The position numbers were made by a program, and so were the translations under genes. DNA of 33,892 nt from Microcaldota archaeon. GTDB lineage: Archaea; Micrarchaeota; Micrarchaeia; Burarchaeales; JACRGF01. Under the pieces are notes generated by a model. It was not told the origin of the DNA. It saw nothing but the letters and a program-made list of their open reading frames with translations, and did not search any database. This document shows, one piece after another, positions 1,673-25,872 of the stretch. How positions within the stretch are numbered: position 1 is the stretch's first letter; every line of letters begins with the position of its first letter. Where the stretch lies: NCBI GenBank assembly GCA_016212395.1, contig JACRGF010000044.1:1-33892 (forward strand), given 5' to 3'.

Positions 1673-1960
1673 ATGAATGAGTTGAGTGAAGAAAACTTGG
1701 TGGAAATTGATAATGTTACTAAGCAAAAGGTGGACGCTACTATAGACTCGATTGAATACGCGTTGCAAGGGTGGGAGAAGGAAAAAAAAACAGGCGCGCA
1801 GTTGTCAGAGAAAATGGAGAAGCTTCAAAAATGGCGTGACGCATTGAAAAAATGGAATGAGACGCACGTGTTCAAAAAAGACGACGAAGCAAGAACTCGG
1901 TTGGAACGCTTGAAAGCGTTTTATGACATTTGCAGGGAATTGGGGGCAGGAGAGAATTAG
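1673..1960 (+). CDS. Small charged helical protein, unknown function
   Basis: A 95-aa protein rich in Lys and Glu, with no membrane segment and no motif I recognise. It looks all-alpha, possibly coiled coil (EKMEKLQKWRDALKKWNE). ATG 1673 is preferred over the TTG at 1670 because GAGGCGG lies 5 nt upstream of it. The next large gene starts 2 nt after its stop, so the two are almost certainly co-transcribed and may act together. It could be a chaperone or partner of the 1032-aa protein; that is inference. Confidence 0.7.
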   Translation: MNELSEENLVEIDNVTKQKVDATIDSIEYALQGWEKEKKTGAQLSEKMEKLQKWRDALKKWNETHVFKKDDEARTRLERLKAFYDICRELGAGEN

Positions 1961-1962
1961 CT

Positions 1963-4900
1963 ATGTGCCCAGTGTTTAAAGGAGCAGAAGAAGCGGAGAA
2001 GCGCGTGAGCGACTTGCAGAGGCTAGTGCAAACTCCGGCGTTCCAGCAGTTGGGGCTTCCGCTTGAAGAAAAAAAAGAAGCGAAAGGGGTAGGGCCTGCG
2101 TCAAGAGCTTCAAATGCTGAAGCGCAAGTGCGAGCATTGGTCGGGCATGCGGGTTCTGCTGTAAAGCCAGTGTTGATCCAAGCTGCAATCCAGCAAGTTG
2201 ATGCAGGCTTGCGCGCTGTCGCGGAAGTAAGGCAAGCTACAGAAACAACGATGGTTGTAGACCGTGAAGTTCTGGGTTATTTTGAAAGACTGCTTCAAGA
2301 CACGAGGGAGAGGCTGCAGGAAGGGGATGCTGGCGCGATAGACGTAGCAATGCTTTACACCGGGTTGTTGAAAGGCTATGTTGAAGCAAGCGCGTCTGTT
2401 CAGGATGCAGGGAGAATAGAACGCGAGGCAGGCTTGCTGCACGGCTCGAAAGCGCGCGAGGCTATTGCAGGGCTTGCTTCAAGCGCGAGAAAACAATTTT
2501 ACGAGTACCAAGAGAGAGTGCGAATGTTTTTGAGAACTCCTGGAAACTCTGAACAACTGGAAGGATTGCTTGAGTTGAACGCTCTTGCTAGTAAAGCAGG
2601 CGTTTCACTTGCGAGGGCCGACGTTTACTTGCAAAAATCGAAGCAGTTTGAGGAAATGTGCGAACAAGCGTCAATTGAATTGAGCAGGCAATCGTCAGAG
2701 TATATTGGAGTGCTTGAAAGAATGAGGAAGAGCGCGCCTGCAGATGAAGATCATGCGGAACTGACGCGTGGACGGTACGAGTACGCGAGCGGTTTTGTTG
2801 ATTTGGTGCGCGATGCAGATGCACAGCTCTCTGCAGCAGTAGAGGGTTACGACCCTTCAAAGTTTTTCAATGCTGACGGCTCGTTCAACGAAGCAAACGA
2901 GCAAATGACAGTATTGAGAAAAGCAGGCGCGATAGTTGAAAGCAGTACTGGAGTGCGCGCGAGTTTTGAAGAGAAAACGTGGCAGGAATTGTTCCAGACA
3001 GAACAAAGAGAAGCGCTTGGTGGATTAACTGCAAGCGCAGTGAGGGGAACGCGCAAGGCGCTTGAAGGAGTGGACAAAGTGCTTGTCCCGAAACTGGGGG
3101 AAGACGGAAAGTTTGAAGGAATGGTTTCAGTTTTTGAAGCAACAGGAAAACAGGAGCTCGCTCGAGAGATTAGGGGAAAGTATGAGGAAGTGCTTGAAGA
3201 ATTAAGCGCGGCGCAAACAGCTTTAGCGCAAGGAAACGAGAGGGAAGCAAGAAGGCACTTGGAGAAAGCGCGCGAACTAGACGGAGAAGCGCAAGCGCTT
3301 TTTAGGGAAGCGAGCTCGAAATACCTGCAGGCTTACAGGGAAGAACGCGGGTACAGAGAGTTAAGCGCTGGAGAGAAAGGCGCGTACTTGTTTTCAAAAT
3401 ATGGGAGTTACGCATGCGACGGGATAGTGATTGGTGCAGGGATTGCTGCTGAAGTTTCAAGCAGCGGGACTGCAACACCGCTTGTGCTCGGCTTGGAAGC
3501 AGCTTACTGGAGCATGCGCGCGGGAAAAGACGTGTACGAAGATTATCAGCGCACAGGAGAACTCTCATGGGCAAAAGTAGGCGAGGGCGCGTTGTTTGCA
3601 GTGCCTGCAGTTGGAAGGTTCGCGAAAGCATACTTTGAATTGTCGAAAGGAGTGCAACTGACGATAAGCATTGCAACAGGAGTTACAAGCTTCGGGCTTG
3701 CAGGATTGGGCGTGTACGGGATAGGAACTGCTGTTGCAAGCGGAATGCGCACAGGGTTTACGAACGAAGAACTAGCAGGCTTGATTGCAGGAGTCGCGCC
3801 AATGGGCTTGGCTTTCAGGGGAGCAGTGCCTGTGATTGCAAAGTGGGGCAAAGAAAAAGTTGCAACGATTGAAATTTACCCAAGGCAGGAAACCCCGACA
3901 GTCAGGGCAGTGGCTGAACCTGCAGGAGCGCAAGTCATTCCATTTCCAAAAACGAGAAGATGGGTTGAAACAGGAAACGCGAGTGGAGAACCGAGAATGC
4001 AAAGACAGGAAGCCGGAGCCGGACCAGTGAGGATGAATGGATGGGAGCGTGGAGCTCAAGTCATTCCATTGAGAACGCCGCGAGAGCAAGTTGAAATGCC
4101 AGTAGTGCGCGAGGCAACGACTGGGCAATCGATAGAAATGCCTGGCGCGCGAGGAGGCAATGCAGAAGCGAGACGCCCTGCATTGAGAGCAGTAGAACCA
4201 ACAGCAAGGAGAAGCACTGCTGAATCCATGAAGCCAGTGGCTGAAGCAGTGCGCAAGGCTACAGGCGTGGAATCCCCTGAGTTGATGAGAGCGCTTGAAG
4301 GGTTCGTGGACGGCGCGGTGAGGGAAGTAAAAGTGTTGAACCCGCGCGAGGGGGGCGGAGTGCTGCGCGTGACGACTGAGAGCGGGCGGAGAGTTTACGT
4401 TAAAATGGTTCAAGGGCAAAAGCAAGCGCAGCAATTGCGGAACGAAGCACTGTTTCAAATAATGGGTGAAAAGGCAGGAGGAAACACGGTGAGAACGCGC
4501 ATTGTCGAGGAGGGAAGGACGACGTTTGCAGTGATGGAAGACGCTGGGACTCCAGTGTCAAGAATGTCAGAGCAGGAGATTGCAAGGCTCTCGCCACGGC
4601 AAAAGCAAGAGCTAGCAAGGCAGATGGGGGAAGACATCGCGCGTTCTTTCATACTAGGTGGAACGGACGTGCACGCGGAACAATTCATGCTCGGCAGGGC
4701 TCCGGGCGGGGGATTGCAGCTTTCGCACGTTGACAACGCGTGCTTAGCGTTCGAGCGAAGGCAAGGCAGGCTGATGGAAAAAACCCCAGCTGAAACACTT
4801 GGCCAAATGTATTCTGAAGTATCACAAGCACTCGGGCTGACAGACGAGGCAGCGCAGTCTGCAATGCGACAAGGGTTCACTGAAGGAATGAACGCAATGC

Positions 4901-5061
4901 GCGAAAGCTTTTCTTCAGGAGCGCTTGAAGCAAGGGCGAGGCTCGGAGAAGAATTTTACAGGCAAAACGAACAAATGCTTCGCGAACTCTACAGCAGGGC
5001 GCAGACAGAGCCTGAAACGGCGTGGAGCAGAATGTACGGATTGACGCTTTCAATGGACTAA
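1963..5061 (+). CDS. Large helical protein with hydrophobic centre and C-terminal kinase-like domain
   Basis: About 1032 aa. ATG 1963 is chosen over the TTG at 1930 because CAGGAGAG lies just upstream. Residues 1-480 are Ala/Glu-rich helix, largely coiled-coil-like. Residues 485-625 are Gly/Ala-rich and hydrophobic (GIVIGAGIAAEV, GVTSFGLAGLGVYGIGTAVASG), with several possible membrane segments. Residues 640-750 are a Pro/Arg/Thr linker. Residues about 780-1000 resemble an atypical (PI3/4K- or HipA-like) kinase: VYVKM for the ATP lysine, a helix Glu in RNEALF, hinge-like FAVMEDA, catalytic-loop-like DVHAEQFML and metal-site-like HVDNACLAF. No signal peptide. The canonical catalytic-loop Asn is Gln here, so activity is uncertain. 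An effector or toxin-like role is possible but unproven. Confidence 0.75.
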   Translation: MCPVFKGAEEAEKRVSDLQRLVQTPAFQQLGLPLEEKKEAKGVGPASRASNAEAQVRALVGHAGSAVKPVLIQAAIQQVDAGLRAVAEVRQATETTMVVDREVLGYFERLLQDTRERLQEGDAGAIDVAMLYTGLLKGYVEASASVQDAGRIEREAGLLHGSKAREAIAGLASSARKQFYEYQERVRMFLRTPGNSEQLEGLLELNALASKAGVSLARADVYLQKSKQFEEMCEQASIELSRQSSEYIGVLERMRKSAPADEDHAELTRGRYEYASGFVDLVRDADAQLSAAVEGYDPSKFFNADGSFNEANEQMTVLRKAGAIVESSTGVRASFEEKTWQELFQTEQREALGGLTASAVRGTRKALEGVDKVLVPKLGEDGKFEGMVSVFEATGKQELAREIRGKYEEVLEELSAAQTALAQGNEREARRHLEKARELDGEAQALFREASSKYLQAYREERGYRELSAGEKGAYLFSKYGSYACDGIVIGAGIAAEVSSSGTATPLVLGLEAAYWSMRAGKDVYEDYQRTGELSWAKVGEGALFAVPAVGRFAKAYFELSKGVQLTISIATGVTSFGLAGLGVYGIGTAVASGMRTGFTNEELAGLIAGVAPMGLAFRGAVPVIAKWGKEKVATIEIYPRQETPTVRAVAEPAGAQVIPFPKTRRWVETGNASGEPRMQRQEAGAGPVRMNGWERGAQVIPLRTPREQVEMPVVREATTGQSIEMPGARGGNAEARRPALRAVEPTARRSTAESMKPVAEAVRKATGVESPELMRALEGFVDGAVREVKVLNPREGGGVLRVTTESGRRVYVKMVQGQKQAQQLRNEALFQIMGEKAGGNTVRTRIVEEGRTTFAVMEDAGTPVSRMSEQEIARLSPRQKQELARQMGEDIARSFILGGTDVHAEQFMLGRAPGGGLQLSHVDNACLAFERRQGRLMEKTPAETLGQMYSEVSQALGLTDEAAQSAMRQGFTEGMNAMRESFSSGALEARARLGEEFYRQNEQMLRELYSRAQTEPETAWSRMYGLTLSMD

Positions 5062-5688: not shown

Positions 5689-7098
5689 TTAGACTTGTTT
5701 TAATCCTGAAAGCAACAACTGCATGCTTGCATCTGTTTCCAAGCTGACTTCAACAAATGCGCGGCCACCTGGGTTGGAAGCATGCGTTTGAAGAGTAAGC
5801 GCGAGTCTTGAAAAAGTCGCGTACCCTGTCTTTCCGCATTTGCTGTGCCCTCTTATTAAAACAGTTGAATGCGTGCCTGCAAGAAAAGCGCGCAACACGT
5901 CAGCCCCGAAAAAACGAAAAGCGCCGCGAGTTTCATTTAACGCAAAACCACTCAAACCCTTTTTAGGCTCGTTCCAAACCAGTTGCGCTAGTTTTTCTCC
6001 GTCTAGCGAGGCGAGTTCGGCCAAAGTGAAAACTCCCTGCGGAACTCCACCGTGAAGCACGAGCACGCCGGAACCAGTATGTAACGCGAAAGGAAGGCGG
6101 TCGAACACGCGCTTGTTTACAAGCGAGTACAACCGCTTTCCACCCCTTGCTTTAAACTTTCGTGTTAACTCTTGATCAAATTCTCCGTATTTGTTGGTCG
6201 CTTCTACTTCATGGTCACCGCGCAAGAGAAAAACGTTTTCAGGAAATGCTCGCTTCAAATCGAGAAGCAACGCGAGCACCCCAACGCTTGAATCACCCCG
6301 GTCGATATAATCGCCAAGCGCAACCAGCGAGATTTTTTCTCCGCTTGAAACTCTCTCTACGAAATTTGTTTCAGAAAGCACGCGAAAAAGAGAATCAAAA
6401 TCTCCGTGCAAGTCGCCCACGAAAACAGCTTTGCCTTCACGCGACAATGAAACTAGGCTGCATTCTACTCTGGCGCCAGAATACCCGCGAGTTTTTTGTT
6501 CGTTGGCTAAAATAGATTCCACATCTAAAACCAAATCTTCAAACTGGCGAGCGTCGATTGTCTTGGCAAAGGAAAAAAAATCACTCAGAGTTTTAGGAGT
6601 GTGAGTTATGCTCCGGTAAGTTGGCTTCGCGTCAAATGCAATTCTAGGAAAAACCTCTTGTTCAGCATCATCCAACTCGCGCAGTGAACGGCTACGTGCG
6701 CCTAACAATTTCGCGAAAAAAGCGCCCCCATCTTCCACTGCCGCGCCGCCCGTGTACGAAACACGCAAGTCCTCTCCTACAAGAAAAATAGATCCAACAT
6801 TAGTAGGACTTGACAGAACTGGCCCGGAATACCGAACGTGGTCCAACGTGCCATTCTTCAAGACGATTAAAGCATCTTTGAAAGGAAGCTCGCTGAAAGA
6901 AATGTGAGTGTAAATTCCCCTGCGAACAGTTTTTTGAGCGCCTTGAATTTGCCCGGATTTGTACATGGCGCGCACTGCCCCAAGAAAATCTTTCACTTGC
7001 GCCAACGTTATATTGCCGTTTCGCACCACCCTCCATAATTCTAGCTCGCGTGAGTAATTGCGAGGTTGCAAATCGCGAGGTAGCGCTTGTTTCGACAT
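5689..7098 (-). CDS. PPP-family Ser/Thr-phosphatase-like metallophosphoesterase
   Basis: 469 aa. The carboxy half carries the ordered PPP motifs GDLHG (about residue 229), GDYIDRG (about 263), LRGDHE (about 295), HGG (about 349) and RGH (about 418). These bind the two metals and the phosphate. The usual GNHE motif is GDHE here; the replaced Asn is normally a metal ligand, so substrate or metal preference may differ. Residues 1-200 match nothing I recognise and may be a regulatory domain. It should remove phosphate from Ser/Thr or a small phosphorylated substrate. It ends beside the operon with the kinase-like protein, an attractive but unproven antagonist. ATG 7098 appears leaderless from the A/T box at 7122-7129. 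Confidence 0.85.
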   Translation of the reverse strand: MSKQALPRDLQPRNYSRELELWRVVRNGNITLAQVKDFLGAVRAMYKSGQIQGAQKTVRRGIYTHISFSELPFKDALIVLKNGTLDHVRYSGPVLSSPTNVGSIFLVGEDLRVSYTGGAAVEDGGAFFAKLLGARSRSLRELDDAEQEVFPRIAFDAKPTYRSITHTPKTLSDFFSFAKTIDARQFEDLVLDVESILANEQKTRGYSGARVECSLVSLSREGKAVFVGDLHGDFDSLFRVLSETNFVERVSSGEKISLVALGDYIDRGDSSVGVLALLLDLKRAFPENVFLLRGDHEVEATNKYGEFDQELTRKFKARGGKRLYSLVNKRVFDRLPFALHTGSGVLVLHGGVPQGVFTLAELASLDGEKLAQLVWNEPKKGLSGFALNETRGAFRFFGADVLRAFLAGTHSTVLIRGHSKCGKTGYATFSRLALTLQTHASNPGGRAFVEVSLETDASMQLLLSGLKQV

Positions 7099-7121: not shown

Positions 7122-7129
7122 ATTTAAAT
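7122..7129. promoter_or_regulatory. Palindromic TATA shared by phosphatase and tyrA
   Basis: ATTTAAAT is self-complementary. It is centred about 27 nt from both ATG 7098 (minus) and ATG 7155 (plus), so one TATA could drive two leaderless transcripts in opposite directions. Confidence 0.6.
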
Positions 7130-7154: not shown

Positions 7155-8447
7155 ATGCGCGTTGCAATCATTGGAGGCGCCGGGGACTTCGGCGCGCTCT
7201 ACGCACAACTCTTGAAGGAAGACGGCTTCGACGTAACGATTACGAGCAGGAGCGAAGAGAGAGGAAGAAAAAAAGCTAAAGAGTTGGGAGTAGAATCTGC
7301 GAGAGAGGAAGAAGCGTGCGCGAACTCTGAAGTCGTGATAGTTTCAGTTTCTATTCGCGCTACTGCAGAGACGATAAAGAGAATTCTTCCGTTCTTGAAG
7401 AAGGAATGCTTGTTGATGGACTTTACTTCGATAAAAACACTGGCAGTGAATGAAATGAAGAAAGCAAAATGCGAAGAGATAGTGGGCTGCCACCCCATGC
7501 ACGGCCCGAGAATAACAAGCTTGGAAGGCCAGACGATAGTGTTCACGCCGGTAAGAAAGGGAGAGCGGTTTGCGAAAATAAAGCATTTTTTCGAGAAGAG
7601 GAAGGCGCGCGTTCTTGAAACCACTGCAGACGAGCATGACGAGGCGATGGCAGTAGTGCAGGCGCTCACGCACTTTACTTACTTGTCAGCTGCAGGAACA
7701 ATAAAGGCGCTTGGAGTGGACTTGAAGCGCTCGCGCGTGTTCGCTTCCTCGCTCTACGAACTGACTATGGATTTCGTCGCGCGCATTATAGGCCAGAACC
7801 CGCAGTTGTACGCTGAAATCCAAATGTTCAACCCGAAAGCAAAGAGAGTGCGCGACGAGTTCGTAAAACAAGCGAGAGAACTGAAGAAAATAATAGACGA
7901 GAAGAATGAGGATGCGTTCATCAAATTCATGAACGAAGCAGCCAAGCACTACGGAAACTTGGAGGAAGGAATGGCGAAAAGCGACAAGGCAATAGCAGCG
8001 CTCAACGAGGAAGTGCGAAGGCTGAAAGCAGCAACTGGAAAAAAAATAGCTGTAGAAAACATTTACTCCCATGTAGTCCACTTCGGAGAGCTTGCAGAGC
8101 TTGATGCTGAAAACATAACTTTGAAAACAAAAAGCAAAACGCAGAAGCTGAAAACATCGAACGTAAAATTATTGGGCTGGAGCGAGCTGAGAGAGTGGAA
8201 AAAGAAAAACAGCGTGAAGAGAGACTACTCGTTCGTATTCTCGAAATGCGAGCCTGAAACAGTAAAGAATGCAGGCGAAGGAATAGACGAAGACGTGGTG
8301 AGCGTGGAAAAAATAGACGTGTACGAAATGGGGGAAAAAGGAACGAGCGTAACACTGCGCTTCACTATTTTCGCAGAAGCAAACCTGAAAGAAATAGACG
8401 GGAAAATAAAAAAACGGTTTGAAGGATTAGGAGCAAAAATACGGTGA
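7155..8447 (+). CDS. tyrA: Prephenate dehydrogenase fused to an FDX-ACB-like domain
   Basis: About 431 aa. The start is ATG 7155 (MRVAIIGGAGDFGALYAQ), which places the NAD(P)-binding GGAGDFG at the amino terminus as in TyrA proteins; the track's 7128 start adds nine unlikely residues. GCHPMHGP is the prephenate-dehydrogenase substrate-site block, and the helical dimerisation domain continues to about residue 290. This enzyme converts prephenate to 4-hydroxyphenylpyruvate for tyrosine synthesis. Residues about 351-431 are unusual: KRDYSFVF ... VEKIDVYE ... GTSVTLRFTIFAEANLKEIDGK ... LGAKIR follows the pattern of the FDX-ACB anticodon-binding domain of phenylalanyl-tRNA synthetase. ACT and FDX-ACB share a ferredoxin-like fold, so this could be a sensor domain. 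The dehydrogenase call is firm; the tail is probable. Confidence 0.88.
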   Translation: MRVAIIGGAGDFGALYAQLLKEDGFDVTITSRSEERGRKKAKELGVESAREEEACANSEVVIVSVSIRATAETIKRILPFLKKECLLMDFTSIKTLAVNEMKKAKCEEIVGCHPMHGPRITSLEGQTIVFTPVRKGERFAKIKHFFEKRKARVLETTADEHDEAMAVVQALTHFTYLSAAGTIKALGVDLKRSRVFASSLYELTMDFVARIIGQNPQLYAEIQMFNPKAKRVRDEFVKQARELKKIIDEKNEDAFIKFMNEAAKHYGNLEEGMAKSDKAIAALNEEVRRLKAATGKKIAVENIYSHVVHFGELAELDAENITLKTKSKTQKLKTSNVKLLGWSELREWKKKNSVKRDYSFVFSKCEPETVKNAGEGIDEDVVSVEKIDVYEMGEKGTSVTLRFTIFAEANLKEIDGKIKKRFEGLGAKIR

Positions 8448-8594: not shown

Positions 8595-9902
8595 TTATTT
8601 AATGAATCTCTTGTGGAGCGCCTGCGCCGCCTGGACTGCCTTGTCTCCTTCCACTACTACGGAAATGCTTCGCTCGCTCGCGCTCTGCGCGATGGCGACT
8701 ACGTTAATTTTTTCTTTCGCGAGGCAGTCGAACACTGAAGCTGCAATGCCGATCTTGCCTTTCATTGAACTGCCGACTACGGACACCATCGCCAGGCCTT
8801 TTTCTACGACGATTTTCCTGCCTTTCATGAGCGGAGCGGCAATGCGTTCTATTTTTTCCGCGCTCTTCTCGTCCACGACTATTGAAACTTCACCGCACGC
8901 GGAAGATTCAGTGATGAGCAGAGGGTAAATGTTTTTCTTGCCGAGTTGGTCGACGATTGAAGAGAAGACAGTCATCATTCCAGTATAGCCTAAAAGTTCG
9001 ACGATGGCAACGTTTTTAGCGAGCGGGACAACCACTGAACTGCCTTGCTCTGCGCTGATGACAGTGCCTCCGTTGTCTTTCTCAAAGCTTTTCACTCGAA
9101 TGGGAATGCGCGCAAGCATGGCAGGCATTACTGCCTTCACGAACACTACTTTCGAACCGTAGTGCGCAAGCTCCATGGCATCAAGGTAATCAACGTTCTT
9201 CACAATCTTCGCGTCAGGAACTACCTTCGGGTCTGCAGTCATCAACCCGTCAACGTCCTTGAGAAGCACGCACTCGCACGAGAGCGCGGCAGCAATGAAA
9301 GTTGCAGTGTAGTCAGAACCGCCCCTGCCGAGAGTAGTAATCAAGCCCTGCTCGTTCAACCCAACAAAACCAGGAACAATAGGAATGCCTTTCGCTTTCT
9401 TCAACGCCTGCACTATCAACGCCTTGCTCTCCTCAATAACGAGCGCGTCGCTGAAATTGCTGTCAGTGCGAATGCCGGTTTCTTCAACTTTCAAGGCAGT
9501 TGCTTCAACGCCGGAATCACGCAAGTAGGCAGCCATTATCTCGACGACAATCCGCTCTCCGAAAGAAACAATCTTGTCGTGAGTCTGGGGCGAAAATTCC
9601 TTCAAGTAACTAATGCCAGTCAAAGTAGTCTTCAAATCATTAAGCAACGCGCGCACTTTCCGCTCGCACTCAGCCTTGTTCTTTTTCAAGCCAGCAACAA
9701 CTTCAAAATGCTTTTTCTCCAACTCGCTCAAATCAAACGAGCCGGTCTTCGCAGAATGCTCGAGCGCAATCAAAGAATCAGTAACGCCCTTCAACGCCGA
9801 AAGCACTATGACACAGTCGCCACTCTTCTGAATGATGGCAACAGTACGCTCGACGTCCGCCTTTGAATTAAGGCAACTGCCCCCGAATTTCAAAACCTTC
9901 AT
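8595..9902 (-). CDS. lysC: Aspartate kinase with two ACT domains
   Basis: 435 aa from ATG 9902, where MKVLKFGGSCLNS gives the aspartokinase nucleotide loop; the 28 residues before it in the track are untranslated leader. Other blocks are SFGERIVVEIMAAYL, GFVGLNEQGLITTLGRGGSDYTA and DVDGLMTADPKVV. The carboxy third has two ACT segments (AIVELLGYTGMMTVFSSIVDQL and VSVVGSSMKGKIGIAASVFDCL), which in this family give feedback control by lysine or threonine. It makes 4-phospho-aspartate, the first step toward Lys, Thr and Met. It is convergent with tyrA. The leader holds a perfect hairpin (9921-9944). Confidence 0.95.
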   Translation of the reverse strand: MKVLKFGGSCLNSKADVERTVAIIQKSGDCVIVLSALKGVTDSLIALEHSAKTGSFDLSELEKKHFEVVAGLKKNKAECERKVRALLNDLKTTLTGISYLKEFSPQTHDKIVSFGERIVVEIMAAYLRDSGVEATALKVEETGIRTDSNFSDALVIEESKALIVQALKKAKGIPIVPGFVGLNEQGLITTLGRGGSDYTATFIAAALSCECVLLKDVDGLMTADPKVVPDAKIVKNVDYLDAMELAHYGSKVVFVKAVMPAMLARIPIRVKSFEKDNGGTVISAEQGSSVVVPLAKNVAIVELLGYTGMMTVFSSIVDQLGKKNIYPLLITESSACGEVSIVVDEKSAEKIERIAAPLMKGRKIVVEKGLAMVSVVGSSMKGKIGIAASVFDCLAKEKINVVAIAQSASERSISVVVEGDKAVQAAQALHKRFIK

Positions 9903-9920
9903 AAAAAACACTCTTCCCCA

Positions 9921-9944
9921 AGGACAAAATCGAAATTTTGTCCT
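9921..9944 (-). promoter_or_regulatory. Hairpin with TTCG loop in the lysC leader
   Basis: On the minus strand AGGACAAAAT-TTCG-ATTTTGTCCT is a perfect 10-bp stem with a UUCG tetraloop. It ends 18 nt before the lysC ATG, just upstream of the GGGGAAGAG ribosome-site-like stretch. If the A/T box at 9971-9980 is the TATA, the hairpin is the very 5' end of the mRNA. It could be an operator, a stability element or a translational control. Confidence 0.6.
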
Positions 9945-10001
9945 GTTTGTAAATGAAAACCGCAGTTTGAATTTACAATACAACAAAAAAGGCTTTCCAA
10001 T

Positions 10002-10428: not shown

Positions 10429-11409
10429 TCATGGTTTGGAGCTTGGGCAGAAGTTGTACTTTTCCATTTTGTAGAGGTTAAGCGTCGAGTAGTCTTTGAC
10501 AGCGCCTGCGAACTCGCGCTTGAACTCGCGCATTATCGAACGGTATTCCTCCACTCCGCGCGCTTCAATGTTGAGTTCGTACTCCCACGGGCCTATCGCC
10601 TTCACAGCGTAAACAATGTTGGGGTGCGCCTTGCAGTAGGCGAGGAGGCGCGCTTCCTCTTCATCAGGCAGGTTTTGCAGGCGCAACAGCACTTTGTAAT
10701 GCAGCTGCCCGAGAGCTGCATGATTGAGCAACAGCACGTAGCCTTGAATCACTCCAGCGCGCTCGAGCTTGCGCACGCGCGTTGAAACAGAGTCTGGCGA
10801 AATTTTTACAGCTCGCGCGATTTCAACAAACTGCTTTCGGCCGTTTTCGCCGAGTTGCGCGAGAATGAGCAAATCCAAATCGTCAACTTTTTCTTCGGAA
10901 GGCACGGCGCCGAAAAGCATTTCCCTCTCCGTGCCAGCGCTTTTCCCCCCCAAATAGTCTCTCACGAAATACTGGCCTTGCACGATGGAAGCAATCTGCC
11001 TCTCTGAAATGAAAGAGTTGAACCTGTTGAGGAACGAATGCAGAAAATCGTTGTACTCCTGCACGTTGCGCGCCCAAGCCCCGAAAACCAAGTCGAACGC
11101 GCCATCACAACGCTCGACGTAAACCACTGACGAATGGCGCGTTAGCCACGCGACAATTTCATCCTCTTCTTTCTCAGTAGTGCCCTGAAACCGCACGAAC
11201 GCCTTTGTGACATAACACCCGAGCTTGCTCACGTCAATAATGCAGTAGTACTTGGAAATTACTTGCTCGCGCTCAAGGCGCGCGATGCGGTTGCGCACTG
11301 CCTCCTTGCTTAGGCGCACTTTCTTCGCGAGCGAAGAGAGCGTGGCGCGCGCGTTTCGGTCAAGCTCCCACAGCAAACGCGCATCTATTTTGTCAAGTTT
11401 TAATTGCAT
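10429..11409 (-). CDS. Tandem Lrp/AsnC-family regulator (HTH-RAM-HTH-RAM)
   Basis: 326 aa, about twice the length of a usual Lrp protein. Residues 1-150 are one complete module: LDKIDARLLWELDRNARATLSSLAKKVRLS with recognition helix KEAVRNRIARLE, then a ligand-binding RAM/ACT-like half (CDGAFDLVFGAWARN). Residues about 176-320 are a second module: DLDLLILAQLGENGRKQFVEIARAVKIS, VSTRVRKLERAGVIQGY, then AIGPWEYELNIEA. Single-chain doubling would give a built-in dimer with two different ligand sites. Likely a transcription factor sensing amino acids. The ATG at 11409 is leaderless from the A/T box near 11436. It diverges from the radical SAM gene, a candidate target together with nearby trpC and lysC (inference). 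Confidence 0.9.
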   Translation of the reverse strand: MQLKLDKIDARLLWELDRNARATLSSLAKKVRLSKEAVRNRIARLEREQVISKYYCIIDVSKLGCYVTKAFVRFQGTTEKEEDEIVAWLTRHSSVVYVERCDGAFDLVFGAWARNVQEYNDFLHSFLNRFNSFISERQIASIVQGQYFVRDYLGGKSAGTEREMLFGAVPSEEKVDDLDLLILAQLGENGRKQFVEIARAVKISPDSVSTRVRKLERAGVIQGYVLLLNHAALGQLHYKVLLRLQNLPDEEEARLLAYCKAHPNIVYAVKAIGPWEYELNIEARGVEEYRSIMREFKREFAGAVKDYSTLNLYKMEKYNFCPSSKP

Positions 11410-18733: not shown

Positions 18734-18833
18734 AAAAAACGTTTTCGGTCTTCAGTTTACAGTTTTCAGTCTTGAGTCTTGATAGTGGCAGCGGGAAAAA
18801 AGAATTTTTATTGTTTGCGCGAGAAGGTTGCTT

Positions 18834-19289
18834 ATGCAGTGCCCTTATTGTTCGAGCGCGGACTTGAAGGTTTTGGACTCGCGTGATGTTGAAGAAACTA
18901 ATTCCGTGCGCAGGAGGCGCGAGTGCGACAAATGCGGAAAGCGTTTTACCACTTACGAGCGCGTTGAAGAAGTTGAAGTGTGGGTAGTGAAAAAAAACGG
19001 CACTCGGCAAAGGTTTGACAGGGCGAAACTGCGAGGCGGGATAGAAAAATCCTGCGAGAAAACAAGCGTTCCCCACGAAAAAATAGAGCAAATCGTCGAG
19101 GAAGTGGAGAGGGAACTGCGCGCGAAAGAAAAAACTGAAGTGAAAAGCAAGGAAATAGGCGAAATGGTGATGGGAAAACTCGCTTCAGTCGACAAAGTCG
19201 CGTACATCAGGTTTGCTTCAGTCTACCGCTCGTTCGCAGACGTCAGCTCGTTCAAAAAAGAACTCGAAAAGTTATTAAAGAAAAAGTGA
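18834..19289 (+). CDS. nrdR: Ribonucleotide reductase repressor NrdR
   Basis: About 151 aa from ATG 18834, the standard length. Zinc ribbon CPYCSSADLKVLDSRDV ... RRRRECDKCGKRFTTYERVE, then the ATP-cone (WVVKKNGTRQRFDRAKLRGGIEKSCEK ... VAYIRFASVYRSFADV). NrdR senses ATP/dATP and represses RNR genes. It is mainly bacterial, so its presence here is notable. Its likely target, nrdJ, lies 4.5 kb downstream. The stop overlaps the GTG start of the next gene by 4 nt. Confidence 0.95.
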   Translation: MQCPYCSSADLKVLDSRDVEETNSVRRRRECDKCGKRFTTYERVEEVEVWVVKKNGTRQRFDRAKLRGGIEKSCEKTSVPHEKIEQIVEEVERELRAKEKTEVKSKEIGEMVMGKLASVDKVAYIRFASVYRSFADVSSFKKELEKLLKKK

Positions 19290-21397
19290 GTAGTAACTCC
19301 AAGCAAAAAACCAAGGGAGTTGAACGAAAAGTGGGAGGAGAACTAGCAACAGTGAGCGCAAAGCACGTGCAAACAACTCGACCCACGCGACAAGCCGCGC
19401 TTCCTCAACAAATGCAACAACCATTAGCAGAAGCAAGAGCAACGCAAACAGAACACGCACTTCAACTCGAACCAACAGCAAGCACAGGAACACGCGAAAC
19501 GCCTGGCGCGCAAACCCAGCAGGCAGCATCAGAAGAATTCAAAGCTAAAGCACTAGAAGCAGCAGAAAAAAACCCTGCTTTTGAAGACAGTGAAAAACTC
19601 GAGAGGGCAGTCAGGCACGCGGAACGCGCTGTGAATTACTACGACATTGAAAAAGTACTTGAAGAACTGGAAAAAGGAACTTTAGCAGGCATTGCGGCAA
19701 AAGCAAGAGTAAGCACAATGCACGAAAGAACCAATAAAGGCAAGAAGAGGATATCAAAAAAAGAATTCGAGCAACAAGCACGCGAACTGGCTGAAAACAA
19801 CCCTGACTTGAAAGGCGACGAGGAGAGGATAAGCAGGGCGTTGGATTACGCGAGGGAAATCGCCGAAGCAACAGGCAATCGGAAAGCGCTTGAAGCATTA
19901 AGCAAAACGCTCCAGCAAATAGGCGCGGTTGCAGGAGCAGCGCGCACGAACAAGCGAGGCTATTATCGTGAAAAACATTACGGCTTGCGTGAAATCCTTG
20001 AGTTCAAGCCAGGATTTTCGCCTGAAGAATACGAAGAAGCAAGGAGATTGCTCGAGTATCTTGAATTGAATTACCCAGAGGAAGCGAACGGGGAAGCGTT
20101 AGAGGTTTTGAGAGCGTGTGAAACGCTTGCAGAATTCCGGCTTGCAGTCAAGGAAGAGCTTGGCGCGAGAGAAAGCAGAGTGCAAGCAGGGGACGCGGGA
20201 GTGGAAGCAAAACAACGCACGTGGAGGGAACGGACAGGGCGCGTGTTGTTCGACCTGGTGCAAGCAAAGTTTGGAATGCACGCGAAAGGAATTTACGCTG
20301 CAAAAAGCGCGCTGGAGAACACGGTGAACGCGTGCAACGGGAACTGGAAACAGCTTGAGGCAGTGTTCGAGCTTGTTGACGAAGCGCGCGGGCCGTACTC
20401 GCTCATGTACAAGCTGAACGAAATGCCGGGCGGAAGCCAAGCGCTTGAAGAACACGAGCCAGCAAAGCGAGGCAAAGCACTGCAAGGCGACGAGGCAAGC
20501 GGTTCGCTGGAAACTGGTGAGAAAGCATTCTTGATTCGCACCCTGCGCCTTTCGAGAGAAGAAGCGAAAGAATTTGCTGAAGGCGACGAGGAAGCGAAGA
20601 GAACTGTTTTTAAGAGGCTGGAGCGAATGCGTTCAAGCGCTGCAGGAGACTCGAAAGCGCTGGAATGCATTGCCTTGCTTAAAGAAAGGTTTTCAATCGG
20701 AAGGCACAAAACAATCACTCGACTGGCTCGAGAAAGAAAAATACGAGTCCATGAAGCGAACCGCTTGCTTTCACTCACAGTTTACTACTTGCAGGATTAC
20801 AAGCTGAACGAAGAAGGAGAAGAACGAAAATTCAAGCAGACAGACAAAGCAATGGACATACTCGCGAAACTCATTAAAGAAGAAAGAAAAGCGCAGAGAG
20901 CGAAAGGAGGCCGAAGCAGATGCTTCGCCACTGACAAGGCGACGACTGGAAAAAACCATCCTGTGAGAAGGCTTGGCAGATGGGGCAGAGTGAGAACGGA
21001 ATATGAAGAAGGGAGAGATGAAAATGGGCGGAGGGAACTCGGTGCGAAAACGCCGAGGCAACAAGCACGCGCGAGAACGCCAGTACAAACTTTGACAAGC
21101 AGGCGACAACCTCCAACAACTGCACAACAACCGCAAGTGCAACAACAAGCAGAAGTTCAACCACTCGCTCAACAAACAAAATCTGCACAACAACCTGCAA
21201 CAACACGCGACCACGCGCAAGCTAATGCACAACAACAAGCAGAACGGGAACCTGAAGAACTCGCGACAGCTGCACTGCAACCACTTGTACAACAACAAGC
21301 AGAACGAGAACAACCAACAGCAGAAGCAACTGACGCGCGACAACCAACACGTGAAACGCAAGGCGAACGCAGAACACTGCATACGCAGGCACTGTAG
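19286..21397 (+). CDS. Long repeat-containing helical protein, unknown; probably 5' part of a broken gene
   Basis: 703 aa, starting with GTG 19286 inside the nrdR stop (GTGA), so translation is coupled to nrdR. Residues 1-85 are Gln/Thr/Ala-rich. Then come two related units of about 62 aa: EEFKAKALEAAEKNPAFEDSEK..GIAAKARVS and KEFEQQARELAENNPDLKGDEE..GAVAGAART. A helical domain with HTH-like stretches follows (ITRLARERKIRVHEANRLLSL). The tail is low complexity with repeated QQQAERE and EREPEELA. The frame stops at 21397, but the same composition continues in another frame, so the gene looks frameshifted. No family recognised; a DNA- or RNA-binding regulator is possible. Confidence 0.65.
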   Translation: MSSNSKQKTKGVERKVGGELATVSAKHVQTTRPTRQAALPQQMQQPLAEARATQTEHALQLEPTASTGTRETPGAQTQQAASEEFKAKALEAAEKNPAFEDSEKLERAVRHAERAVNYYDIEKVLEELEKGTLAGIAAKARVSTMHERTNKGKKRISKKEFEQQARELAENNPDLKGDEERISRALDYAREIAEATGNRKALEALSKTLQQIGAVAGAARTNKRGYYREKHYGLREILEFKPGFSPEEYEEARRLLEYLELNYPEEANGEALEVLRACETLAEFRLAVKEELGARESRVQAGDAGVEAKQRTWRERTGRVLFDLVQAKFGMHAKGIYAAKSALENTVNACNGNWKQLEAVFELVDEARGPYSLMYKLNEMPGGSQALEEHEPAKRGKALQGDEASGSLETGEKAFLIRTLRLSREEAKEFAEGDEEAKRTVFKRLERMRSSAAGDSKALECIALLKERFSIGRHKTITRLARERKIRVHEANRLLSLTVYYLQDYKLNEEGEERKFKQTDKAMDILAKLIKEERKAQRAKGGRSRCFATDKATTGKNHPVRRLGRWGRVRTEYEEGRDENGRRELGAKTPRQQARARTPVQTLTSRRQPPTTAQQPQVQQQAEVQPLAQQTKSAQQPATTRDHAQANAQQQAEREPEELATAALQPLVQQQAEREQPTAEATDARQPTRETQGERRTLHTQAL

Positions 21398-21855
21398 TAA
21401 GAAGAACAGTTGCAACTGCACAATCAGCAACACTCGAACAACCAACTGCAGAAACAACGCAAGCGCGACTTCCAGCTCAACGCGAAAGCGCGCAGCCAGA
21501 ACAAGAGCCAACAAAAACCAGAGTAGAACCACAAGCACAACCTCGAGCAGAACGAGAACCTGAAGAACTCGCGCAAGGGGGTATAGCACATGCAGCACTT
21601 CAAACAGCAGAGTTGCATGAACGCGCGCCAGTTGCAGTTGAAGCAGAACCTGCAATCCAGGCACGAGTTGGAGCAGAAGCAGCGTTGGTAGCTGTTGCGC
21701 CAGTTGAGTTGGAAGCACAATGGGTAGAAGCATTTATGCGAGAAGCAGCGCGAACGCTGAAAGCTAAAGGGATGGCTGGATACAAGCTGATGGAAGCGCT
21801 ATGCGTGGCTGGACAATTGCTGAAATTACAGGAACGAAAAAATCGCTTGAAGTAG
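21334..21855 (+). pseudogene. Out-of-frame continuation of the repeat-containing gene
   Basis: Frame 1 is open from 21334 to the stop at 21855. It encodes VATAQSATLEQPTAETTQA..EREPEELAQGGIA.. and then AQWVEAFMREAARTLKAKGMAGYKLMEAL. The EREPEELA block matches one in the previous frame (near-identical DNA at about 21238-21266 and 21545-21572). The first shift must lie between 21334 and 21397 and the second between 21768 and 21855. The track reports only the part from ATG 21613. Confidence 0.6.
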
Positions 21856-22838
21856 TTGGAAGAGCAGCGAACGTAAGAAGCCTGCGGAAAATGCTGGGGA
21901 ACATTAGAAAACAAAACGAACGGGAACGCACAGGCAAACAGTTTCCAGCGCCGGAACCCACAAGAGCATTGCCCGCACCGACGGCAATAGAAAGAACTGC
22001 TTCAAGAGAAATTCAAGCAGAAGGGCTGATGAAAGGAACGCGAACGGTTGAAGAACAAGAAAGAAAAAGCAGGGGAACAACAAGCACAAAAGAAGAAGAT
22101 TCAACTCCTAAAAAAAGCGGGCTTGAAAGAAAAAGCACGGGAAACGAGAGTTCCCTGCCAACAGCACGCGAGCCTGAAAAAGAAAACGCTGGAGCAAAAA
22201 GCGCGAGAGAAAAAGTTTCAGTTCTTGAGCGTGAACCTGAAAGAAAAAATCTTGAAGTTGCAGTTGAAAGTTTTTCGCTTGAAAGAGTGCTTGAAGCGTT
22301 GAGCTTGAACGGAAGCGGGAACGACGCAATATTGGCAGAGGCAGTGCGGCGCGTGAAAAGCGAAACAGGCGCGTTCGATTTACTGGCTGGAACGCACGAA
22401 TCGGAAGCGAAAGCGTTAGAGCACGTGTTCGGCTTGAACACGGAAAAGAAAACAGTTCCGGAAGCGTGCGACGCGTTGAGCAACGAAGGCGAACGCGCAA
22501 CTCCGAAAGAGTTGGTTGAAAAAGGGTTGCAAGTGTTGCGCGAGGCATTAGTGTTCGACGCGCTCACGTGCGACGACAGTATAAACGGAAGCTTGGAGCG
22601 CAGGCGCGAAGCACTGCAAGTCATGCGAGCGCGTGGCGCGATGCAGAAGTTGAGGAAGACAGACGCGCTCGCGTTCGAAGTGCTGGCGCGCAGGTACTTA
22701 GGCGCAGGCGAAGTTCTTTCACTCCAGCAAGTCGCGAAACAGCTTCACGAAGAAAGCGTTACTAAAAGGCTCGCGGGAACGCAGTACGTTAGAATAATTG
22801 AAAAGAGAGGCGTGGACGAACTGCTGGACAGCACGTAG
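21801..22838 (+). CDS. Helical HTH-containing protein, probably 3' part of the same broken gene
   Basis: 345 aa. It begins MRGWTIAEITGTKKSLEVVGRAANV, which reads as a helix-turn-helix that would follow naturally on GYKLMEA of the previous frame. That supports one original gene of about 1180 residues. A charged linker follows. The carboxy third (LERRREALQVMRARGAMQKLRKTDALAFEVLARRYLGAGEVLSLQQVAKQL) resembles a sigma-region-4-like or ParB-like HTH in shape only. It could be translated on its own from ATG 21801. Function unknown. Confidence 0.6.
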   Translation: MRGWTIAEITGTKKSLEVVGRAANVRSLRKMLGNIRKQNERERTGKQFPAPEPTRALPAPTAIERTASREIQAEGLMKGTRTVEEQERKSRGTTSTKEEDSTPKKSGLERKSTGNESSLPTAREPEKENAGAKSAREKVSVLEREPERKNLEVAVESFSLERVLEALSLNGSGNDAILAEAVRRVKSETGAFDLLAGTHESEAKALEHVFGLNTEKKTVPEACDALSNEGERATPKELVEKGLQVLREALVFDALTCDDSINGSLERRREALQVMRARGAMQKLRKTDALAFEVLARRYLGAGEVLSLQQVAKQLHEESVTKRLAGTQYVRIIEKRGVDELLDST

Positions 22839-22871
22839 AAAACGCGTTGCCATGCTTGCGTATTGTTAAAG

Positions 22872-22879
22872 TATTTAAA
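22872..22879 (+). promoter_or_regulatory. TATA-like box
   Basis: TATTTAAA is centred about 28 nt before ATG 22904; leaderless transcription is likely. Confidence 0.5.
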
Positions 22880-22903
22880 CGAGTTTGAAGAAAACTTTTT
22901 AGC

Positions 22904-23485
22904 ATGCATGAAGCAGCTGAAAAAGCAAGCGTGAGGCATGCGGCGAGAGTTGAAAGGGCTAGTTTTGCAAGGAAGATTCCTTTAGTTGGGCGCTTGATGC
23001 GCGGGATTCTCGCGCGCAAGGCGAATAGAAGGTATAAAGTGATTGCACTGCTCAGAAAAAAGGAAGGGAAGGAACTGTTCGAAGCTTTAGAGTTTTTTTT
23101 GAAGAGCAGGAACGAGTTCGAGCGCGCAGGCGCGTGCCACTATCTAGTAGCGTTCGGCGGGAAGGAAATAATTCCAGTGTTGAGAGAGCTTGTTGAAAGC
23201 AAGGATGACGTGACGCGCGGTTTTTACGAGTTGTTCTTGTGCAGGCTGTTCATGCTTGGAGACTTCAGCTTGGAAGTTCTCGAGAGAGCTCGGCAGATTC
23301 TCACTGCAAACGAGCAGGAAAACGCGTTCAGGCATGAAATGCTGAGAATACTATCAGAAATAGAAAGCGCGCGCGCAGGGCAATTCCGAATCATGCTGGC
23401 AGGAGGCACTTCGAGAGAAGAAAACGCTCAGGAATTAAGGCGAGTTGGAGCGTTGATGATATCAAACGCCTTGGCAAGAAGATAA
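22904..23485 (+). CDS. HEAT-like repeat protein
   Basis: 193 aa. Helical pairs such as LFEALEFFLKSRNEFERAGACHYLVAFGGKEIIPVLRELVESKDDVTRGFYELFLCRL follow the HEAT pattern. The amino terminus is very basic (RHAARVERASFARK, RLMRGILARKANRRYK), suggesting contact with nucleic acid, ribosome or membrane. It is the second HEAT-like protein in the window and is not obviously related to the one at 5078. No known function. Confidence 0.65.
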   Translation: MHEAAEKASVRHAARVERASFARKIPLVGRLMRGILARKANRRYKVIALLRKKEGKELFEALEFFLKSRNEFERAGACHYLVAFGGKEIIPVLRELVESKDDVTRGFYELFLCRLFMLGDFSLEVLERARQILTANEQENAFRHEMLRILSEIESARAGQFRIMLAGGTSREENAQELRRVGALMISNALARR

Positions 23486-23525
23486 GTGGGCAGCAGCGTT
23501 TTCTTGAATAAAAGTTAATTGTGAA

Positions 23526-23727
23526 CTACCACCCGATAAATCGGGCGCTATTTTGCTTTTGCAAAATGCGCCACATTTGCCTTCGGGCAAATTGTGGTGG
23601 CGTCTTCTTTCATCACACACTCATGCTGTTTGATTCATATAAAAACTCTTATGGGGGGTGACAGCCAATGCGACCGCCTTATCCACCCATTAAAATGGGT
23701 AGAGTTGGCGACCGCGAATAGTTTTAA
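23526..23727. mobile_element. Non-autonomous IS605-type element (PATE/MITE-like), copy 2
   Basis: The right part (23611-23727) is the same end sequence as at 515-691, starting exactly at the position of the tnpB start codon. The left part packs three hairpins side by side: CCCGAT-aa-ATCGGG; GCGC and ATTTTGC around TTTT; and CCACA-TTTGCC-ttcg-GGCAAA-TGTGG. They are enclosed by CCACC/GGTGG. A tnpB reading frame is absent, so this is best read as both ends of the element joined without the gene. The right half forms CGCC-ttatcc-ACCCAT-taaa-ATGGGT-agagtt-GGCG. Confidence 0.72.
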
Positions 23728-23728
23728 A
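23719..23728 (+). promoter_or_regulatory. Probable nrdJ TATA box formed by the element end
   Basis: tagttttaaa, the conserved last bases of the element, lies about 40 nt before the nrdJ ATG. It predicts a start near 23750, followed by an AAGGG ribosome site. Confidence 0.45.
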
Positions 23729-23763
23729 TTGGTGGCAGCCGAATTCTTTTCAAGGGTTTGCTC

Positions 23764-25872
23764 ATGGTTAAAACGTCTATCCGCGAGATTAGGAAGCGCG
23801 ACGGCAGGGTTGCTCCGTTCGAGCCTGAAAAGATAGGAACAGCAGTGGGAAAGGCGTTTGAAGCAGCGAGAGTGAAGGACGCGCGGAAAGTGGAAAAGAT
23901 AGTTGCTGAAGTACTGCGAGTTTTGGAAAAGCGTTTCGGGGGCAGCGTGCCTTCAGTTGAGAATGTTCAAGATGTTGTGGAGAACGTGTTGATGGAGGCT
24001 AAAGAAGCAAAGGCAGCGAAAGCGTACATTTTGTACAGGAGAAAGAGGAATGAAGTGCGCGAGGCGAAAAAGTTTTTGGGAGTGGAGGACGAGCTGAAAG
24101 TGAGCATTAATGCTGCTGCAGTGCTTGAGAGAAGGTATTTGCTGAAGGATGATGAGGGGAGAGTGGTTGAAAGCCCGCAGGAATTGTTCGAGCGAGTTGC
24201 AAGAACAGTTGCAGGCGCTGAAAAAAAGCATGACGCGCACGCGGACGTGAAAAAAATCGAGGAAAAGTTTTTCAAGCTCATGAGCTCGTTCAAGTTTCTG
24301 CCTAATTCGCCTACTTTAATGAATGCTGGAACGAACATCGGGCAGTTGTCCGCTTGCTTCGTGTTGCCTGTTGAAGACTCTATCAAAAGCATTTTCTCTG
24401 CAGTAATGAATTCTGCGGAAATACAGCAAAGCGGGGGGGGAGTTGGCTTTAGTTTTTCGAGGCTCAGGCCTAAAGGCGATGTTGTAAAGAGCACGCACGG
24501 CGCTGCAAGCGGGCCTGTAAGCTTCATGAAAGTGTTCGACGTTTCAACAGATGTTGTAAAGCAAGGAGGCAAGCGCAGGGGCGCGAACATGGCAGTGCTG
24601 CGAGTGGACCACTCGGACGTGCTTGATTTTGTCACTGCAAAGTACAAGGAGAAAGGGTTTGAAAACTTTAACTTGAGCGTTGCAGTAACAGACGAGTTCA
24701 TGCGCGCTGCTGAAAGAGGAGCAGAATACGCGCTTGTGAATCCGAGGACTGGAAAGCCAATGAAAACAATGAGGGCGAATGACGTGCTTGATTTGATTGC
24801 TGCAATGGCTTGGGAAGTCGGGGACCCGGGAGTTATTTTCATAGACGAAGTGAACAAGCACAATCCAACCCCTGGACTGGGTGAAATTGAAAGCACGAAC
24901 CCGTGCGGCGAACAGCCGTTGCTTCCGTTCGAAAGCTGCAACTTGGGTTCTATTGATGTTGGAAAGTTTGCAGGAAAAGGGAAAGTAGAGTGGGAGGAAT
25001 TGAGGGAAGCGATTTCAACTGCAGTGCGTTTTCTAGACGACGTGATTGATGTTAACAAGTTTCCTCTCGCTGAAACAGAGAAAATCACGAAAGCGAACAG
25101 GAAAATCGGGTTGGGAGTAATGGGGTTTGCGGACTTGCTCGTGTCGCTTGGAATAAGCTACAATTCAAAGCAAGCGCTGGAGTTTGCTGAGAAACTCGCG
25201 TCGTTCGTGCAGAAAAACGCGCGCGAAGCAAGCAAGCAACTCGCTGAAGAAAGAGGAGTGTTCCCGAACTTTGAGCAGAGCGCGTGGAAAGTGAAAGGCG
25301 AAAGAGTGAGGAACGCGACGATAACAACCATTGCGCCTACTGGAAGCATTTCAATAATTGCAGACTGTTCGAGCGGAATAGAGCCGTTGTTCGCAGTGTC
25401 GTTCGTGCGCAGCGTAATGGAAGGGACGAAACTATTGGAAACAAACAGGCAATTCGAGCAGATTGCGAAAGAAAGAGGTTTTTACTCGAGAGCGCTCATG
25501 CACAAGATTGCGAAAACTGGAAGCGTGCAAAACTTGAAGGAAGTGCCTGCGGACGTGAAGGAACTGTTCGTGACTGCCTTGGACGTGCCAGTGGAACAGC
25601 ACGTGAAAATGCAGGCTGCATTCCAAAAACACGTTGACAATGCAGTAAGCAAAACTGTAAACATGCCTCACGATGCGACTATTGAAGACGTGAGGAAAGC
25701 GTTCCTGCTCGCGTTCAAGCTCAAATGCAAAGGCATTACGGTTTACAGGTACGGAAGCAAAGGAGAACAAGTGCTCTCGCTCGGGGACGGAAAGCAAGAG
25801 GAAGAGCTGAACTACGCAGCAGCAGACTCGGATTATTCAGGAGGATGCCCAACACCGGCGTGCAATTATTGA
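23764..25872 (+). CDS. nrdJ: Adenosylcobalamin-dependent (class II) ribonucleotide reductase
   Basis: 702 aa from ATG 23764 with AAGGG upstream; the TTG at 23758 in the track is less likely. Residues 1-95 form an ATP-cone (REIRKRDGRVAPFEPEKIGTAVGKAF). Catalytic-barrel motifs follow: SPTLMNAGTNIGQLSACF, SGGGVGFSFSRLRP, the NPCGEQPLLPFESCNLGS finger-loop cysteine and Glu, and APTGSISIIADCSSGIEP. The carboxy end GGCPTPACNY provides the redox cysteine pair. It makes dNDPs or dNTPs without oxygen. The cofactor fits the adenosyltransferase gene at 27266. NrdR and dATP are the expected regulators. An IS-like element sits directly upstream. Confidence 0.96.
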   Translation: MVKTSIREIRKRDGRVAPFEPEKIGTAVGKAFEAARVKDARKVEKIVAEVLRVLEKRFGGSVPSVENVQDVVENVLMEAKEAKAAKAYILYRRKRNEVREAKKFLGVEDELKVSINAAAVLERRYLLKDDEGRVVESPQELFERVARTVAGAEKKHDAHADVKKIEEKFFKLMSSFKFLPNSPTLMNAGTNIGQLSACFVLPVEDSIKSIFSAVMNSAEIQQSGGGVGFSFSRLRPKGDVVKSTHGAASGPVSFMKVFDVSTDVVKQGGKRRGANMAVLRVDHSDVLDFVTAKYKEKGFENFNLSVAVTDEFMRAAERGAEYALVNPRTGKPMKTMRANDVLDLIAAMAWEVGDPGVIFIDEVNKHNPTPGLGEIESTNPCGEQPLLPFESCNLGSIDVGKFAGKGKVEWEELREAISTAVRFLDDVIDVNKFPLAETEKITKANRKIGLGVMGFADLLVSLGISYNSKQALEFAEKLASFVQKNAREASKQLAEERGVFPNFEQSAWKVKGERVRNATITTIAPTGSISIIADCSSGIEPLFAVSFVRSVMEGTKLLETNRQFEQIAKERGFYSRALMHKIAKTGSVQNLKEVPADVKELFVTALDVPVEQHVKMQAAFQKHVDNAVSKTVNMPHDATIEDVRKAFLLAFKLKCKGITVYRYGSKGEQVLSLGDGKQEEELNYAAADSDYSGGCPTPACNY

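Follow-up and report, generated by a model that had tools for sequence, protein, structure and literature searches.

Archaeal prephenate dehydrogenases (TyrA) may carry a C-terminal tail whose regulatory role has been presumed but left unspecified since 2005: what is this tail, and what might it sense? The fusion, termed TyrA-REG (COG4937), was described in that year with a putative regulatory C-terminal domain (excerpts of PMC1173090). A further member of it is encoded in the 33,892-nucleotide stretch of Microcaldota archaeon DNA analysed here (hereafter the window), where a preliminary description made from the letters alone had read the tail as an FDX-ACB domain, the anticodon-binding domain of phenylalanyl-tRNA synthetase (PheRS). 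We examined the identity, architecture, distribution and conserved residues of this tail and weighed the functions that these would suit.

The tyrA gene and its surroundings

The tyrA open reading frame encodes 430 amino acids on the forward strand (7155..8444, stop codon 8445-8447); an in-frame ATG lies upstream at 7128, and homologues begin at the Met encoded at 7155. The product matched the NCBIfam model NF006408 (PRK08655 prephenate dehydrogenase) from end to end with an E-value of 5.8e-122, residues 1-430 aligning to model positions 7-441 at 407.6 bits, slightly below the curated equivalog cut-off of 422. The catalytic core is present, with both the nucleotide-binding domain PDH_N (residues 17-154, 7203..7616 (+); PF02153, 9.5e-25) and the dimerization domain PDH_C (residues 158-260, 7626..7934 (+); PF20463, 4.5e-22) scoring above the Pfam cut-offs, and its best match in the PDB, by sequence and by structure alike, was H. 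influenzae TyrA (2pv7). To judge from its sequence, the gene product belongs with the TyrA-REG prephenate dehydrogenases of Archaea, sharing with COG4937 (PRK08655/NF006408) the same length, the same tail and a match along the whole chain. The novelty of the fusion that the preliminary description had implied does not hold, because TyrA-REG was described in 2005 (excerpts of PMC1173090). NCBIfam also holds full-length models for it. COG4937 presumably now bears the title 'FDXACB'.

Upstream and divergent from tyrA lies a gene for a calcineurin-like phosphoesterase of 469 amino acids (5692-7098 (-)), with a long N-terminal part belonging to no known family. Downstream and convergent is an aspartokinase with an ACT domain (8598-9986 (-)), which served us as a negative control. 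It adjoins a gene for an Lrp/AsnC-type protein of 326 amino acids (10432-11409 (-)) with two tandem helix-turn-helix units (HTH_24 and HTH_AsnC each matched twice), a possible amino-acid regulator located near tyrA. Elsewhere in the window, at 18828-25869, a gene for an NrdR-type zinc-ribbon/ATP-cone repressor lies upstream of one for an ATP-cone-bearing large subunit of ribonucleotide reductase, and the open reading frames between the two had no Pfam match or merely weak HEAT-like matches. Long open reading frames lacking a Pfam match were found at 1930-5058 (+) (1043 amino acids) and 19286-21394 (+) (703 amino acids).

Architecture of the tail

An AlphaFold model built from the alignment (pLDDT 92.6) was used to delimit the parts of the tail. 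A helix linking core to tail (residues 269-292, 7959..8030 (+), from DSSP of the model) leads into the C-terminal extension, which begins at about residue 293. Next comes a small beta-barrel predicted by AlphaFold and Foldseek to have a five-strand Sm/Hfq-like fold (residues ~297-339, 8043..8171 (+)), with strands at 297-302, 308-316, 320-324, 329-333 and 337-339. A connecting helix with a conserved Trp348-Lys349 pair follows (residues 342-351, 8178..8207 (+), from the alignment and the model), and the chain closes with the FDX-ACB domain of about 78 residues (353-430, 8211..8444 (+)), supported by hhalign, the PDB profile search and Foldseek. The preliminary description had placed the FDX-ACB domain in the last 80 or so residues, and the motifs it quoted do occur there (residues 351-430, 8205-8444); it had missed the barrel and with it the true extent of the tail.

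Among small domains, the top Foldseek matches of the barrel were M. jannaschii Hfq and a designed SH3-like barrel. Superposition on M. jannaschii Hfq (2qtx_B) gave an rmsd of 1.0 Å over 48 columns (TMt 0.75, E 0.03) at 14% identity. No Pfam Sm/Hfq match was obtained among the tail members and the barrel lacked any sequence-level match; we therefore describe it by fold only. It also differs from Hfq in not being a free ring-forming protein. Ranked by Foldseek E-value the best match was to MscS/YbiO (2e-4), but homology to MscS-type channels was rejected at an rmsd of about 10 Å and a TMq of 0.32-0.37; this match probably reflects a shared order of small barrel and alpha/beta domain.

Relationship of the tail to PheRS

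FDX-ACB was the only Pfam family to match the 95-residue tail, at 16.3 bits and an E-value of 0.014. This single-sequence score is below the gathering cut-off of 31.1, so we do not claim the tail as a member of PF03147 but only as a homologous, divergent FDX-ACB domain. Pfam run across the whole assembly from which the window comes returned no FDX-ACB match, and no other FDX-ACB domain was found in that genome. When the 35 tails of our alignment A1 were compared singly with Pfam, 34 matched FDX-ACB individually (best 4.7e-6). The tail profile searched against all PDB sequences gave the C-termini of PheRS beta chains as its sole significant matches (2rhs_B, 7e-4). In profile-profile comparison with hhalign, a tail profile from 52 filtered sequences matched an FDX-ACB profile built from the PheT loci of bacteria at 97.7% (P 1.5e-12), whereas a control profile of 49 ACT matches of aspartokinases and related proteins and the reversed tail profile each scored 0.2%. 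The predicted fold of the domain is ferredoxin-like, beta-alpha-beta-beta-alpha(-beta), and superposes on PheRS FDX-ACB, with Foldseek placing PheRS chains at 2.5-3.3 Å over 86-93 columns (2rhs_D at 2.5 Å over 86). AlphaFold may have learnt the PheRS structures; the sequence results stand independently of it.

Could the FDX-ACB assignment nevertheless be mistaken, the tail being an ACT or some other ferredoxin-like domain, or could the match be due to chance? The sub-threshold Pfam score and the frequent resemblance of beta-alpha-beta folds to one another speak for such an error, but profile, profile-profile and structural comparisons all picked PheRS FDX-ACB, and we consider it very improbable. 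ACT identity was rejected on the hhalign result and on Pfam, where the tail gave no ACT match at E-values up to 10; chance was rejected on the reversed-profile control. We conclude that the tail is almost certainly homologous to the FDX-ACB domain of PheRS. The preliminary description, which had named ACT as the alternative and profile-profile comparison and structure prediction as the check, is upheld on this point, and its reading of the gene as a prephenate dehydrogenase with an FDX-ACB fusion is borne out by the NF006408 match together with these three lines of evidence.

Among the closest known systems is the FDX-ACB (B8) domain found in mitochondrial PheRS and in the beta chain of bacterial PheRS. 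Compared with it, the TyrA tail has a shorter beta3-alpha2 loop without the 'RTLtdeE' segment, is preceded by the Sm-like barrel and is fused to a dehydrogenase. ACT-tailed TyrAs such as that of B. anthracis (5uyy) likewise end in a ferredoxin-like domain, a probable ligand sensor, but the two kinds of tail are not homologous at the profile level.

Distribution of the tail

The preliminary description had suggested a survey of domain fusions in archaeal TyrA. In the window's phylum the tail occurred in 3 of 245 genomes, all from the window's own order, and the other TyrAs of the phylum stop at about residue 280. In a second archaeal phylum, reached via a Haloarchaeobius record, 53 of 197 genomes encoded the tail or its divergent form; with Pfam FDX-ACB alone the domain was detected in 10 of 295 genomes of this phylum, always within TyrA. 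Every tail match in the two surveys (53/197 and 3/245 genomes) fell within a TyrA reading frame or broken pieces of one, and no free-standing copy was found across the 197 and 245 genomes. The module therefore appears dedicated to TyrA, which argues for an intramolecular role.

Several apparent exceptions were discarded. Extra tail matches in three genomes (G115, G129 and G246) proved to be split TyrA genes, and a weak NF006408 match to linker and barrel in G404 was judged by eye to be a false positive from a malic-enzyme-like sequence. We infer that the M. jannaschii control match is the TyrA of that organism. In a tree of TyrA cores, whose reliability suffered from some long branches and from L114 being read in a wrong frame, the tailed proteins of the window's order grouped together and were not nested in the tailed clades of the second phylum. 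A genome of the same class encodes a TyrA fused to prephenate dehydratase and ACT (TyrA-PheA-ACT, 601 amino acids; L011:574-2376 (-)), a different regulatory solution within this class.

A putative guanine-binding pocket in the tail

Human mitochondrial PheRS reads G34 of its tRNA via Asp364, Phe366 (equivalent to Tyr-beta731 of T. thermophilus), Ser375 and Arg414, and the Asp364Gly substitution abolishes aminoacylation (PMC7540514). In T. thermophilus the D-x-Y...S motif of the domain lies at 729/731/742 (phmmer numbering). The profile alignment sets four TyrA residues on these positions. Asp388 and Tyr390, within Asp388-Val-Tyr390 (8316..8324 (+)), correspond to Asp729/Tyr731 of T. thermophilus PheRS beta and Asp364/Phe366 of the human enzyme, which bind G34; Ser398 (8346..8348 (+)) corresponds to Ser742 and human Ser375, which contacts G34 O6; and the C-terminal Arg430 (8442..8444 (+)) corresponds to the terminal FDX-ACB arginine and to human Arg414, which contacts G34 N7/O6. 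An arginine near the end was present in 38 of 38 PheT sequences, and from domain length we infer that human Arg414 is this residue.

The pocket is strongly conserved in TyrA tails: Asp388 in 62/62, Tyr or Phe at 390 in 62/62, Ser or Thr at 398 in 54/62 and Arg430 in 61/61. Identity over the FDX-ACB domain between the window and the second phylum is merely 23-30%. Ranked by variability, all four residues fall within the lowest 13 of 78 positions, for which the chance is ~5e-4. The eight sequences with Ala or Gly in place of Ser398 are L095, L096 and L098-L103. These same sequences carry hairpin segments of 18-42 residues between the equivalents of Tyr390 and Ser398, where the others have 4-10. 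One divergent TyrA group (L112-L115) has lost all four residues and ends in Lys; its tail is homologous to that of the window in profile comparison (95.6%) and has the same layout of barrel and ferredoxin-like domain, providing a natural control for pocket function.

Strict retention in most tails with joint loss in one group is the pattern expected of a functional site. Arg356, Asp357, Thr400, Arg402, Gly424 and Gly426 are conserved about equally to the pocket residues; since G34 reading does not explain these six, part of the conservation is structural. As read from the aligned sequences, the four residues that form the guanine pocket in PheRS FDX-ACB are retained in the TyrA tail, and we consider it probable that this pocket functions in ligand binding.

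What the tail may do

We favour, tentatively and at somewhat short of an even chance, a regulatory module dedicated to TyrA with a guanine ligand, carried by a G34-containing RNA or a nucleotide; L-tyrosine in the same pocket is a close rival. The tail would act allosterically, capturing guanine in the Asp388/Tyr390/Ser398/Arg430 pocket. The captured base would most likely be G34 of an anticodon loop, which both tRNA-Tyr (GUA) and tRNA-Phe (GAA) carry; otherwise it would belong to a free guanine nucleotide. Once filled, the pocket would alter the activity of the TyrA dimer, and tyrosine synthesis would thereby be tied to translation or to the status of nucleotides. The preliminary description's hypothesis that the tail may exert tRNA-linked or Tyr/Phe-linked control gains real support from the conservation of the four G34-reading residues. 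A more specific reading, in which archaeal TyrA would sense the anticodon loop of tRNA-Tyr or tRNA-Phe (or a guanine nucleotide) with the help of an Sm barrel of RNA-binding type and set tyrosine synthesis to match, we regard as rather unlikely. Against the guanine module in general, reading a single G would not in itself tell tRNA-Tyr from the many other G34 tRNAs, Ser398 is replaced in eight sequences and the whole pocket is lost in L112-L115.

That the ligand is a guanine base and not an amino acid is itself slightly less likely than not. A pocket of Asp, Arg, Tyr and Ser could equally hold a tyrosine zwitterion. It is quite possible, although not what we would expect, that the tail is a feedback sensor of L-tyrosine (or Phe), working like ACT on an FDX-ACB scaffold and inhibiting the dehydrogenase, with Arg430 to the carboxylate, Asp388 to the ammonium group and the ring stacked on Tyr390. 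The retained residues chemically suit an amino acid, a C-terminal ACT domain serves other TyrA lineages (as in B. anthracis TyrA, solved with tyrosine), and a PheA-ACT fusion occurs in the same class (L011). Moreover, excerpts of PMC1173090 name the archaeal extension 'REG', presume a regulatory role and cite inhibition of the M. maripaludis enzyme by tyrosine. That inhibition needs no tail, because tyrosine can also act at a TyrA active site (A. aeolicus TyrA, 3ggg, was solved with tyrosine). In its geometry, moreover, the pocket is a purine site, and the tail has no relationship to ACT.

The tail might instead be a structural or oligomerisation module, with the barrel and the ferredoxin-like domain keeping the dimer together and the conserved residues needed for folding. 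Sm-like barrels commonly oligomerise, no part in G34 reading is known for several of the nearly invariant tail residues and the tail is never free-standing, all of which would fit. Yet TyrAs of this phylum that lack the tail look complete, and folding by itself hardly accounts for Asp388 or for Arg430, with which the chain ends; we consider a mainly structural role improbable. The guanine-binding regulatory module remains our preferred reading.

A literature search of open-licence papers found none linking FDX-ACB with prephenate dehydrogenase. In its excerpts, PMC1173090 neither resolves the tail into Sm-like barrel and FDX-ACB nor mentions a G34 pocket. Within the open-licence literature, the retained pocket and the Sm-like barrel of the TyrA tail thus appear to be new. 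If the ligand is tRNA, a biosynthetic enzyme would be under the control of an anticodon-reading domain outside the synthetases, giving a metabolic enzyme a direct readout of tRNA; if it is tyrosine, a pocket for reading a base would have been adapted to an amino acid. With its guanine pocket intact and an Sm-like barrel in front, the FDX-ACB domain makes the function of REG in archaeal TyrA testable with a few point mutants.
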